Program-made: the position numbers and the translations under genes
Shown here: positions 34,946-64,000 of the stretch, piece after piece
How the letters are laid out: each line of letters opens with the position of its first letter
Numbering within the stretch: the stretch's first letter is position 1
The notes under the pieces: model-generated
The model's database searches: none
Told to the model about the DNA's origin: nothing
What the model saw: the letters and a program-made list of their open reading frames with translations, nothing else
From: Dicyema japonicum
Taxonomy: Eukaryota; Dicyemida; Rhombozoa; Dicyemidae
Direction: 5' to 3'
Assembly: GCA_011109175.1 (NCBI GenBank)
Contig: RDEW01000010.1
Coordinates: forward strand, 727,837 to 791,836
Length of the DNA: 64,000 nt

Positions 34946-37066
34946 CTAAGATGACACAAATTTATAATCTTCATCGGTCATTTCAATTGCCCAATTAAAC
35001 TTATCTCTTTGTGTTTTATTGTATATTTTTTCAATTGGCACGTCATTCTTTCTACACCAAGCAACTGATATACGAGGATCCAAATAATTCAGTTTAGAAG
35101 TCCCCATGGCTATTTGTTACTCTCATCCTACAATAGATATACATTCATACACGATCAGTGGCAGTCATTCTCAGTTTAGACAACGTGTTCTTCGCCACGA
35201 CAATCTTCTTCTGAGCAGCCTCAAATGACCTACAGTCTTAAAATCACCAAACTTCTTCTTAGCCTCAGTCTGATTGGCCACATAGTCAGCCTGTCGTCTC
35301 TTTGTCTCCTTCTCTAGCTCCTCAATGGCAGCCACTTTGTCCTCAATCTACCATAAAGACCTCACACACCTTCTTTTGCATATTATCCATTGACTTAGAG
35401 AATGTCTTTGGAATAGAGCGTTGGTGGTTACAGAGAACTGCCACAGCACGGTTGGCTCGATTATAAGACAACACCTTCTCAGAAACAGAGGACTCAGCTG
35501 CCATAACACCAAACTAACCTTGAGTAAGTGAATCCAACTGTTGTTCCAAAGTAATAGATGCATTATATGTTCTAAACACTTTTGCAGTCAATCCAGCCAT
35601 CAACTCTTGAAGATATTTATTCAAAGAAGTCGTCTAAAGTAAGAAAAGAAACCACCGAAAGACTATCAAAGAGATCATCTTCTGGTCGTTTGTCTTTTAT
35701 AAAAGTTTGTAGGTTTTTATAAGCCTTCTTGGTGACAGTAACAACGTTCTGATATCTTATAGAATCCTTTCCCAGAAAGTCAAACTCCACAACACAGTCA
35801 TCCTTAAGCGCCACGTGCTCCACTCTGAGAGAACAACAACCGACAGTGTCAGCCGTAGACTCATCCTTCTCATTTCCAGCCCTGAGGGCTAGTCTGTCTA
35901 TAAAGTAAAGAGCCACAGCTCGCTGTCTTATTTTGTTCTCATTGGCAATAAAGTCCTTAGTGTAACTATTTCTGATAGATTCAATGTGCTTGTGCAATTC
36001 TCTAGCGGTTTCGTACTTCTCCATGTCCTTCACTCCCTCAAATATTCCCAATCATCACCTTAAGCTTAGAACAGGATGCCAACATCACATACTTTGTAAG
36101 ACCGAGGACTGGCTCTACCCAACTGGCTAGAAAGGAAACTGAGTTGTCATGAATTACGTCCTTCCATTGAGATCCCACAGGTGGAGGCACATCAGACGAA
36201 CAGTTTATGGTTACATCCTCGGGGCGGATTCGGGCTTTCAGCTTCCCCATCTTTGGATGATTTCCACGACCTCGGAACAGTCCGGGAGGCTCTATTTTAA
36301 AATTGCCAATCCTTTCGCGGTGTCCGTCAAGCAAACAGAACCCAAACTCCTCCTGAATGCGAGAATTTTCCAATTTTATTTCCTGGAATTATTTTACAGC
36401 CACCTGTTTCTCCTCCTTAGTCATAGACTTCCTAGCCTCAGCCAAACTGGTATAATGGGCATGGATTGGACGGAAGTCGCAGAAGTCGAGACATTTTACG
36501 ACTTCACGTTCTTTCTTAGTCATAACAGATCTCCAATCCTCAAAAAAGTTCTTTTTGAATGTCGTCATTGTTGTATACTCGTGCTCTATCATCTTTGCGT
36601 AGAACCCCGCCACCTCCTCAGCCTCGGGGCTTAGACTTAGTGGGGTACCTATGAATGAGGATGTAGAGTACCTTTATATAAAAGTTTTACAGTTTCTGGG
36701 AGACGTTCATATTTTGGTGGAAAAACTGGGCCTTTGTGTTCCAAAGTCGTCCATTTGATGGAATTGTCGGTCTTTTCTTCCCACCTGCAATAATGATAAG
36801 AACAACCATCTCCAACAGTCATCTTCCTTTGGCTCTGCCTTTACACGTTTTGGGGGAGGTGTGGAGGCTTCATCTTTGGGTCTTTTTGACGATTTTGATA
36901 GCTTTTCTAAGTTTTTTGGGTTCTTCTTTGCCTTCGGTTTTTCTGGTTTTACGTCGTCACAATCTTTGAAAGAGTTATTGTCCTTTTGTCTGCAGATCGT
37001 ATTCACTCCCATATTATGTGTCTATATTATATTATTATAAATGACTTTTGATTCTTTACGTGTCAT
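34946..37066 (-). CDS. TOP1: DNA topoisomerase I (type IB), eleven exons with 21-24-nt introns
   Basis: Relaxes supercoils in the nucleus by a transient 3'-phosphotyrosyl link. The Lys-rich N-terminus starts at 37066. Then come [40 protein letters not shown] and [16 protein letters not shown] [20 protein letters not shown] (core), [43 protein letters not shown] and a coiled linker. The C-terminal [12 protein letters not shown] carries the catalytic Tyr and ends [10 protein letters not shown]. Introns: 37022-37045, 36785-36806, 36649-36671, 36383-36403, 36037-36058, 35634-35655, 35498-35518, 35348-35369, 35230-35252, 35128-35150. Oddity: after the last intron the frame reaches TAG about 5 codons before the Tyr domain, as if 4 nt (one ACAA/CAAA unit) were missing. 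Length, about 633 residues, is short of the human 765, mostly at the N-terminus. AATAAA near 34905. Confidence 0.93.
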
Positions 37067-37199
37067 ATTCAAGACGGCCTAAGGTGGACCACCTTATGAT
37101 TTTATTTTTATTTATTTATTTTTATTTATTTAATAATTTATTGTATTTAATAATTTAATCAACTGCTGTTTAGTATTAATTGTTTTTACGATTAACGAT

Positions 37200-37445
37200 A
37201 AATGGAAATGAATCGCCCGTGGTGCCATGTGGCTACTTGATTGAAAATTTCTGTTTATTTTGTCTGTTTCTCCTTTTCCTATTTCAACTAGAGTGGCTTC
37301 ATGTGATCTACCTATCTCATGTGGCGGTCAATGTAGAGTGGGATAAAAAACGGATCATTTGCTCTCCCCACTCCACTGGAGGGGTTTCCGTAGCAACTAT
37401 TTATTTTTCGTTCGAATGGTTAGAAGACATTGTGTGATAGAGTCA
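37200..37445 (+). repeat. Composite leader repeat (copy C)
   Basis: GTGGTGCCATGTGGCTAC, then AGAGTGGCTTCATGTGATC, GGATCATTTGCTCTCC and CCACTGGAGGGGTTTCC. The last three blocks are shared in order with 42175-42285. Confidence 0.55.
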
Positions 37446-37671
37446 CATCACCATCTCAACTAAAAAGATCTATGCAACTGGGGGAGTTGGAGGAAGCTAT
37501 TATATGACATGCTAGACTGGTTACCATCACCTGTCATTAAATCATTTTTCCTGTCATTGGTGATGAAATTTATCGTAAATCAATGATAATCACTTTATTA
37601 TATTTAAGTTTTCTTGCACGACACACTTTATTTATTTTTTATTTCCCTAAAGCTCTTAATCTGAGTACCGT
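37446..37671. other. Spacer
   Basis: No feature recognised. Confidence 0.3.
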
Positions 37672-61997: not shown

Positions 61998-62614
61998 AAC
62001 GTGATTTTAACTTAAATTTTCATGATTTAAATAAATTATAATTTTAATATATAAAAATTAATTTTTATAAACTCAAAATTGATTCAAATTTATAATCTTA
62101 CAAATCTATTAAAATAAATAAAATAAAATCTTACAAATCTGAAAACCTTGTATCAGCTTTTGCCTTTCCATTTTTTTTCCTGTCATACCGTTTCCGATTC
62201 CGTAATTAAGAAGAAATAATTAACGGCAAACACTTTATTGATAATAGTTAAACAATCAATTCGAGGACCATACGGGAACCGCAAATACCCTCATAGGATT
62301 TTTACGGAAGTTGGCTCAAACAGGCATCTTACTATCAAAGATCCGATGTCATGTTGGAATGAAACCGATTTTGGTTATAACATTTTTTTAAAAGGTTTTG
62401 GGTCTCATTGGACCGATCTGAGTAAGAGGCTGTCAGAATAAAGTTGGAAATAGAGAAACTTCAACACAAGAGGTGTTCCATGGTATTTCTCACCCTTCTA
62501 CGGGAAAAAGACTCGTCGGGCCTTCTGTTTGTACTGTCGAGTTCAAGGAGTTCAAGTTGTACTGGACTATTATCTTTATTTAACAAACAATAAAAAAGTT
62601 AATATATTTATTAA
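61998..62614. other. Spacer with an unassigned 67-codon frame
   Basis: AT-rich to 62220. At 62238-62441 (+) a frame reads GPYGNRKYPHRIFTEVGSNR and CWNETDFGYNIFLKGFGSHW. No domain is recognised; I do not call it a gene. Confidence 0.3.
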
Positions 62615-63660
62615 TCAACTACCTTCCTCGCCTGCCTGTTCGACAGCCTCCTCAGGCAGGTTCGATTCTGGTTGCTGAAACAACTCCGAGAGCGCATTGT
62701 CAAATTGAACCCTCTGCCCATATGGCATCTCAGGGCTCTGCCTCCTATACTCCAGTGTCAGACTCTCTAGGGTCCGCTTTAATACAGTGGACTGTAGATA
62801 GGCCTAGAGCTTCCTATCTACCCCCAACTGCTTCAGATAACCCTTGTGGTACTTTGTTGCAATTCCTTCCCACGTCATTACTATAGGAATAACGAGGACC
62901 TTGCAACCAAGCATCTGCCCCATCTCGTTTGCAAGAAAGTCATACTTCCTTTTTTTCTCCACCTCCACAGTCTGCAAACGGTCTTGAGACGTGATGCCAA
63001 CCTCTATGATAAGGACTTGGCCAGACTCCTTATCGTGTACCACAATGTCCGGTTTATTGTGCTTGACTAGCACCGAGGTACGGATAACACTGTCTACCTT
63101 AATTTGGACCCTGGTGTTCTCTACTACAGATTGCACCTTATGAGTCCGCAACTTTCTGGTGTGGCGAATACCATACTTATTGCATAGTAGAAGATGAAGA
63201 CTCCTTACTACCTCGTTATGCCTCCACACATAGTCGTGGCAGAGCATGGATCCACATCGAGTGGCTAAATGATCAACCGACATGCTCCTTGACTTACAGT
63301 GGGGACATGTATTTGTTGATCGACCCCAAAAAATATTGCGGTCTTGCATATACGTGTACAGCGCCTCCGATCGAGGTGAGTTGTCACCGTATTTTAGCCA
63401 TATTGTCGACGACTTAAGGTCGACATGTGGGTTGTCCAATGCTCTAAAGAGGACTTTATGAAGGTTTTTTAAGTTGATCTTTTCCATCAAATTATTATAT
63501 TGTAATTCGATCAACGCCTTCACATTTACTAGCCCACCATCATGAACACCATACTTAGCAGACAAAAAAGGTTTGATAGTGCCTAGGTGGGTTGCCCGTG
63601 TTTTCTCGGTCGTTATTATGGCGTGCTTCCTAGCAGTAATAATATTAATTAAAATTTTTA
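62615..63660 (-). mobile_element. 5'-truncated LINE of the second RLE family (RT C-terminus, zinc knuckle, endonuclease)
   Basis: A minus-strand frame runs from about 63660 to 62802 without interruption: NNLMEKINLKNLHKVLFRAL, CPHCKSRSMSVDHLATRCGS and YVWRHNEVVRSLH (zinc-binding domain), then HNKPDIVVHDKESGQVLIIE (PD-(D/E)xK endonuclease: PD, then E after a beta strand) and VVIPIVMTWEGIATKYHK-like residues. A single TAG at 62802 interrupts RKL/AYLQSTVLKRTLESLT, after which the frame continues to TGA at 62615. The RT palm is missing on the upstream side. Fairly young: only one stop. Confidence 0.8.
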
Positions 63661-63715
63661 ATTAGCGAAAAAAATCAAAATATTAAAAAAAAATTTAATT
63701 ATAACTTTTATTGTG

Positions 63716-64000
63716 ATGTCTGATGATCCGTCGCAAAATGATGACCCTTTTAAGAATCTACGAAGAAAAGTCTTGTTTAATTTCAATGGTAGAACCCAGA
63801 ATTAGAAAAACGGTTGATTGAACTCAAAAAACGCCAGTTTTCCCGCGAATACAATAAAATGACCTCAAATGTTTCCTCACGTGGGTGAAAACTCAAACAG
63901 TTGCTAAAGAAGGTAAATCATATTAAATATGGAAGTGAGAGTGGTTGAAAAGAGTTTAATGTCACTGTTTAATTTTATAACGACTGTTGTATGTGCTTTT
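63716..64000 (+). CDS. TMEM199: TMEM199/Vma12-type V-ATPase assembly factor, 5' part (runs off the window)
   Basis: An ER protein that helps assemble the V-ATPase Vo sector. ATG 63716: MSDDPSQNDDPFKNLRRK; intron 63770-63792 (23 nt); NPELEKRLIELKKRQFSREY and NKMTSNVSS match the family's NPELxxRLExIKxxLAxxEYKRMTRNV. Intron 63881-63900 (20 nt), mini-exon of 12 nt, intron 63913-63935 (23 nt), then VRVVEKSLMSLFNFITTVVC, the first transmembrane segment. The remainder lies beyond 64000. The 12-nt exon between two tiny introns is notable. It is divergent from the LINE fragment 62615-63660, whose upstream end is 55 nt away. Confidence 0.85.

Follow-up and report, generated by a model that had tools for sequence, protein, structure and literature searches.

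Predicted spliceosomal introns of 20–27 nucleotides in the genes of a likely dicyemid, with a probable branch-site adenosine close to the 3' end

How does an animal spliceosome find introns of little more than twenty nucleotides (nt)? The question is raised by the window G000:C2:727837-791836, the whole stretch of 64,000 nt analysed here, in which the genes for DNA topoisomerase I (TOP1) and for the AP-1 sigma adaptin (AP1S) are interrupted by GT-AG segments of this size. For 41 introns of Dicyema acuticephalum it is reported that a branch signature is lacking and that the 5' boundary score is weaker than any other known (PMC2483917), which leaves open how the introns of dicyemids are found. 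We examined the window together with the genome to which it belongs (64,672,829 bases in 191 contigs). Segments of 20–27 nt are predicted to be U2-type spliceosomal introns, likely of a dicyemid, in which the lariat would be closed by an adenosine at position -7 or -8, counting backward with the last G of the intron as -1. To this reading we give a probability of roughly 0.87.

Introns were located with a purpose-written local spliced aligner that compares a foreign protein with the DNA, charges a flat cost for a GT-AG intron of any length, and also permits frame breaks at a cost. The reference-guided set consists of ten conserved genes, TOP1 and AP1S in the window and eight elsewhere in the genome (PRPF8, CCT1, CCT2, CCT5, CCT7, HSP60 and two aldolase genes), and the choice was non-random, by conservation and convenience. 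Nine chaperonin-family loci were found and the five named were aligned, the four CCT alignments covering partial stretches of their references; L069, L070, L072 and L077 are outside all counts. The permitted intron length was 15–120 nt for TOP1, 12–60 nt (Capitella reference, P0207) or 12–300 nt (Lingula reference, P0133) for PRPF8, and 12–300 nt for the other eight genes. All 84 reference-guided introns measure 20–27 nt although lengths up to 60, 120 or 300 nt were equally cheap, and the core of the claim made from the sequence alone, very short introns of 20–26 nt in the host genes, is borne out, though several of its counts for single genes are not. PRPF8 contributes 36 of them (36 with Capitella and 35 with Lingula, the extra one appearing only in the 60-nt run), and the CCT, HSP60 and aldolase genes 37 together. 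An eleventh gene, a LYAR-like frame of the window with two introns read by hand, brings the total to 86, with a mean length of 23.20 nt, a standard deviation (SD) of 1.23 and a median of 23. One intron has 20 nt, five have 21, 16 have 22, 34 have 23, 18 have 24, nine have 25, two have 26 and one has 27. The density is 84 introns in 17,145 coding bases, or 4.9 per kilobase. The aldolase paralogues at C68:1155120 (L067) and C112:545691 (L068) have all five intron positions in common, with lengths of 23/25, 27/26, 23/23, 23/23 and 23/23 despite diverged intron sequences. Frame breaks of 1–2 nt are indel-like and were excluded from the intron counts; such breaks, which may stem from the assembly or from the genome itself, are also present inside PRPF8, CCT7, HSP60 and one aldolase gene.

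The identity of TOP1 is clear from Pfam matches of its draft splice (Topoisom_I 332 bits, Topoisom_I_N 298 bits, Topo_C_assoc 89 bits) and from 61% identity to TOP1 of Clonorchis with 88% of the query covered. It contains nine GT-AG introns of 21–23 nt, and the same nine were obtained with each of the Clonorchis, Mactra and Paralvinella references. Ten had been claimed; beyond the nine, a 2-nt frame break remains near position 35118, which is not an intron of 20–26 nt. In the other genes the GT-AG ends are imposed by the aligner; the dinucleotide control concerns TOP1, where GT-AG is the best of the 256 possible donor/acceptor pairs with a score of 1792. The remaining 255 pairs have a mean of 1602, an SD of 28 and a maximum of 1676, and without introns the score is 1558 with seven frame breaks.

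Among the 86 introns, donor position +3 is A or T in 91% and position +5 is G in 14 (16%), and on average 4.92 of nine positions match CAG/GTAAGT. The acceptors are TAG (57), AAG (15), CAG (11) and GAG (3), no pyrimidine tract stands out in the 86 introns, and the intron interiors have a G+C content of 5% for PRPF8 and of 33% for TOP1. The genome has 25 matches to U2 small nuclear RNA (snRNA), 22 of them above the cut-off and the best with 155 bits, and GTAGTA is found in the three copies read. For U6 there are ten matches (nine above the cut-off, best 108 bits; ACAGAGA in the two copies read) and for U1 eleven, with ACTTACCTGG in three of the four copies read. The recognition sequences of U1, U2 and U6 are hence conventional. 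The PRPF8 gene is present, as are a U2AF2-like gene and an SF1-like gene, the latter with an SF1 domain match of 80.5 bits. There is also a U12 snRNA gene (L082) at G000:C68:163471-163599, which begins with ATGCCTTAAACTTATGAGTAAGG and scores 85.4 bits with a gathering score of 53; this tiny-intron genome has probably kept its minor spliceosome, and one may ask whether introns of the minor class can shrink to such a length too. One 23-nt intron of CCT7 (L074, 1904-1926) begins with GTATCCTC, one letter off the U12-type donor consensus, and no U12-type branch motif is seen in it by eye.

TNAY, an abbreviated version of the branch consensus of animals, is present with its A at -7 or -8 in 43 of the 86 introns against 18.1 expected. 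Outside PRPF8 the count is 26 of 50 (7.7 expected), and none of 2000 dinucleotide-preserving shuffles was as high in either set. An A in any context stands at these positions in 70 introns (46.8 expected; 0/2000 shuffles as high), and the excess at -7/-8 is larger than at any other position pair scanned, with a z of 8.5 relative to single-base shuffles. Ranking the adenosines of each intron by potential U2 pairing places 27.75 of the 86 best sites at -7/-8, compared with 11.5 after shuffling (0/2000), and 20.5 of 50 compared with 6.6 when PRPF8 is left out (0/1000). The literal YTRAY is found in 28 of the 86 introns only, at positions scattered along the intron. Counted from the donor, adenosine peaks at nt 16, and counted from the end it peaks at -7, with equal height (43 of 86 each, z 3.9). 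In the pooled set the excess at -7/-8 is statistically clear, and these positions are probably the branch site, as predicted from sequence. It had been held earlier that the introns have hardly any space for both a branch point and a polypyrimidine tract; a tract is indeed not visible, but the pooled TNAY signature with its A at -7/-8 is.

The signature might instead be a by-product of base composition or of a position window chosen post hoc, with dicyemid introns truly devoid of a branch consensus and recognised by GT, AG, A+T richness and length alone. The published D. acuticephalum introns without a branch signature (PMC2483917) would agree with this, as would the modest signal in PRPF8 taken by itself, where about 95% of the intron interiors is A+T. 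The explanation is nevertheless unlikely, with the TNAY count out of reach of the dinucleotide shuffles also in the 50 introns outside PRPF8, and with -7/-8 standing out from the position pairs scanned.

Another possibility is that the segments are excised from somatic DNA, in the manner of the internal eliminated sequences of ciliates, and not from RNA. A dicyemid assembly with many circular contigs (PMC6543705) makes DNA rearrangement conceivable, but the GT-AG ends are spliceosomal and outstanding among the 256 pairs, spliceosomal components are present, and in D. acuticephalum it was a comparison of genomic with complementary DNA that revealed short introns (PMC2222250), so that elimination from DNA appears very improbable.

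The host is likely a dicyemid, though not D. acuticephalum itself, as judged from one gene, aldolase. The product of the C68 paralogue shares 75% identity with aldolase of Dicyema acuticephalum along the full 361 residues (601 bits, the top match), and among the 120 aldolase matches listed no other exceeds 62% identity (448 bits for the 62% match); four longer matches (461–612 amino acids, 465–585 bits, 52–60% identity) were disregarded, being likely double matches. Dicyemids are microscopic animals of octopus and squid kidneys. The organism-named TOP1 matches among the 120 listed are animals, and PRPF8 aligns over almost its full length with Lingula and Capitella. Ciliates and nucleomorphs are the classical holders of introns of 15–25 nt, and an origin from either would account for the length and the A+T richness, which resemble those of introns in Paramecium and in the nucleomorph of Bigelowiella (PMC2483917), but such an origin can practically be dismissed in view of these aldolase, TOP1 and PRPF8 affinities and of a genome of 64.7 megabases. 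The claim of spliceosomal introns in a dicyemid-like animal is in keeping with the lengths, the GT-AG control, the U1, U2 and U6 genes and the aldolase match alike.

Several observations weigh against the prediction of U2-type introns with a branch site at -7/-8. The introns are predicted from genomic sequence alone, and the window -7/-8 was picked after part of the same data had been inspected. TNAY is at these positions in just half of the introns, and in PRPF8 alone the signal is weak, with TNAY in 17 of 36 (10.5 expected; 28/2000 shuffles as high), A in 29 of 36 (24.8 expected; 162/2000) and 7.25 of 36 best U2-pairing sites (4.8 expected; 122/1000). The best U1 match has 69 bits and the gathering score is 69.5, which no copy reaches, and the U2AF2-like match, taken exon by exon, has 82.6 bits and is below the family cut-off of 310.3. 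Frame breaks other than introns occur in several genes, and segments outside the 20–27 nt range were proposed by a codon-usage model described below (16 nt in L069, 28 and 29 nt in DDX46, 31 nt in MBOAT), none of them counted. GTW and YAG triplets are rarer in the 17,145 coding bases than in synonymous shuffles (448 vs 494 and 380 vs 426), and intron-like GTW..YAG pairs are as depleted at a spacing of 28–35 nt as at 20–27 nt; since the avoidance is not specific to 20–27 nt, it gives no support for a length ruler.

A further property of the introns concerns translation. Of the 84 reference-guided introns, 23 have a length that is a multiple of three, and 21 of these carry an in-frame stop where 15.2 are expected (5/2000 dinucleotide shuffles as high), compared with 30 of the 61 introns of other lengths, where 30.0 are expected (Fisher p = 0.00035 for the difference in stop frequency). 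The excess fits selection against translatable introns, which is described in Paramecium and reported to be general in intron-rich eukaryotes (PMC11334263). It may in part reflect a detection bias, as frame-neutral introns without a stop are easier to overlook; insertions of at least four codons that were left unspliced number only two, both in CCT7, of nine and seven codons.

If the predicted introns are spliced as proposed, U2 would pair at -7/-8 with an unchanged GUAGUA, largely by U-A and G-U pairs. The branch adenosine would then lie at about nt 15–18 of the intron, and the near-constant length itself would therefore act as a recognition signal, that is, intron definition by size. Introns that are retained may be removed by nonsense-mediated decay. 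Taken together this would amount to a size-selecting animal spliceosome for which, sequence signals being all but lost, a near-fixed geometry of about 23 nt with the branch adenosine at -7/-8, near nt 16–17, is the main signal, with stops in the frame-neutral introns that serve decay of failures and with the U12 spliceosome kept, a tentative scheme to which we assign somewhat less than even odds. A near-fixed branch-like adenosine makes intron recognition directly testable, in an animal with ordinary U1, U2 and U6 recognition sequences.

The coordinates of the features in the window are collected in Table 1. The joined AP1S protein scores 116 bits with Clat_adaptor_s, compared with 30 bits for exon 1 alone, and the spliced alignment confirms the two introns proposed for this gene. 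The highest-scoring match of TOP1 is a Trichinella zimbabwensis protein with 891 bits, perhaps a double match, whose coverage of 68% is lower than that of the flatworm matches. A plasmid search with TOP1 gave no matches, and neither did Rfam and transfer RNA scans of the window. Decayed reverse-transcriptase-like open frames are seen by eye between the host genes, at 46984-47400 and 54822-55180.

Table 1. Predicted genes, introns and candidate introns of the window (positions are those of the window).
Feature	Position	Strand	Length (nt)	Basis and remarks
TOP1 (DNA topoisomerase I) gene	34946..37012	-		Pfam, homologues, spliced alignment; 10 exons in this model
TOP1 intron 1	36785..36806	-	22	identical with all 3 references
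TOP1 intron 2	36649..36671	-	23	spliced alignment
TOP1 intron 3	36383..36403	-	21	spliced alignment
TOP1 intron 4	36037..36058	-	22	spliced alignment
TOP1 intron 5	35634..35655	-	22	spliced alignment
TOP1 intron 6	35498..35518	-	21	spliced alignment
TOP1 intron 7	35348..35369	-	22	spliced alignment
TOP1 intron 8	35230..35252	-	23	spliced alignment
TOP1 intron 9	35128..35150	-	23	spliced alignment
AP1S (AP-1 sigma adaptin) gene	42501..42992	+		PDB AP-1 sigma 8e-32; Pfam Clat_adaptor_s
AP1S intron 1	42677..42701	+	25	spliced alignment, reference 4p6z_S
AP1S intron 2	42811..42833	+	23	spliced alignment, reference 4p6z_S
LYAR-like open frame	61318..61997	-		hand-read; 211 codons once two short segments are removed
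LYAR-like frame, GT-AG segment	61856..61878	-	23	hand-read; CTAAC with A at -8
LYAR-like frame, GT-AG segment	61645..61665	-	21	hand-read; CTGAT with A at -7
DDX46 gene	51837..54549	-		limits from chain model restricted to 18–34 nt introns
DDX46 candidate intron	54424..54449	-	26	chain model; in RS-like N-terminal part without homology support
MBOAT-family gene exons	about 10776..11481 (G000:C2:738612-739317)	+		outside the coordinates given with the sequence-only claim

A reference-free chain model based on codon usage was also tried. With introns of up to 120 nt permitted it lacked power and yielded numerous long, spurious introns in the CCT genes, and its results were for this reason not counted. 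In HSP60 the chain model (15–120 nt) proposes eight introns of 21–25 nt, compared with seven in the reference-guided alignment, and a scan of the window with introns of 18–34 nt and a score above 12 returned DDX46 and TOP1 alone. DDX46, for which at least one intron had been claimed, is a real gene (PDB 7evo match, 1.4e-81). The chain model (18–34 nt) places segments of 26, 29 and 28 nt in it, but the 26-nt candidate lacks homology support and two frame breaks, at about 53045 and 54150, are not resolved by any GT-AG segment of 20–27 nt between the anchors tried; the solutions are of 16 nt alone at the first and of 14, 56 and 59 nt at the second, none of them convincing. The LYAR gene with two introns stands in so far as the frame opens when the two hand-read segments are removed, but its name does not, as a Pfam search of the frame yields only a sub-threshold DM match. 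The seven introns claimed for MBOAT are not confirmed; at this locus the chain model proposes segments of 24 and 31 nt with a negative score. Nor are the three claimed for TMEM199: searching the genome with the Pfam family Vma12 gave no match, and the search's own controls were equally silent.

Very short introns in dicyemids are already published and the phenomenon is known. Published values are a mean of 26.2 nt for 16 introns of D. acuticephalum (PMC2222250), a median of 25, a mean of 24.93 and an SD of 2.51 for 41 introns of the same species (PMC2483917), a median of 27 in Dicyema sp. (PMC6543705) and a mean of 38.2 in D. japonicum (PMC6736024). The introns described here resemble the published ones in being dense, very short, A+T-rich and GT-AG bounded, with a very weak donor, in animal genes. 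In the present sample the introns are shorter and more uniform than those of D. acuticephalum, with a mean of 23.2 and an SD of 1.23 (n = 86); Welch tests, in which the published ± was read as an SD, give p values of about 1e-4 for the comparison with the 41 introns and 1e-5 for that with the 16. The gene sets compared are different. The present sample also has a branch signature at -7/-8, where none is described for the 41 introns (PMC2483917); as the published lack concerns a small set, it is not taken as a condition for belonging to the dicyemid introns. This signature and the in-frame stop excess are apparently the unreported parts: no dicyemid branch signature or U12 gene was met with in the accessible literature, mostly outside subscription journals, a scope within which absence is not established.

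Outside the dicyemids, introns of the Bigelowiella natans nucleomorph, a vestigial algal nucleus, are similar in high density, extreme shortness, a donor of little more than GT(A) and high A+T content, but are shorter (median 19) and have no branch signature reported (PMC2483917). The introns of Stentor coeruleus are likewise A+T-rich, with a weak branch consensus and canonical major snRNAs, and their branch A is almost fixed at nt 10 or 11, just as a near-fixed place is predicted here; they are shorter still, with 15–16 nt, and minor-spliceosome snRNAs were reportedly not found in that species, in contrast to the U12 gene of the present genome (PMC9505925). In the ciliate Paramecium tetraurelia the introns have a similar length (median 25), weak signals and selection against translatable introns (PMC2483917; PMC11334263). 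In Paramecium there is a deficit of lengths that are multiples of three (PMC11334263), whereas introns of 24 nt are common here (18 of 86) and multiple-of-three introns mostly carry a stop (21 of 23). The stop excess suggests that animal introns as short as these are likewise subject to the selection against translatable introns that was first described in Paramecium.

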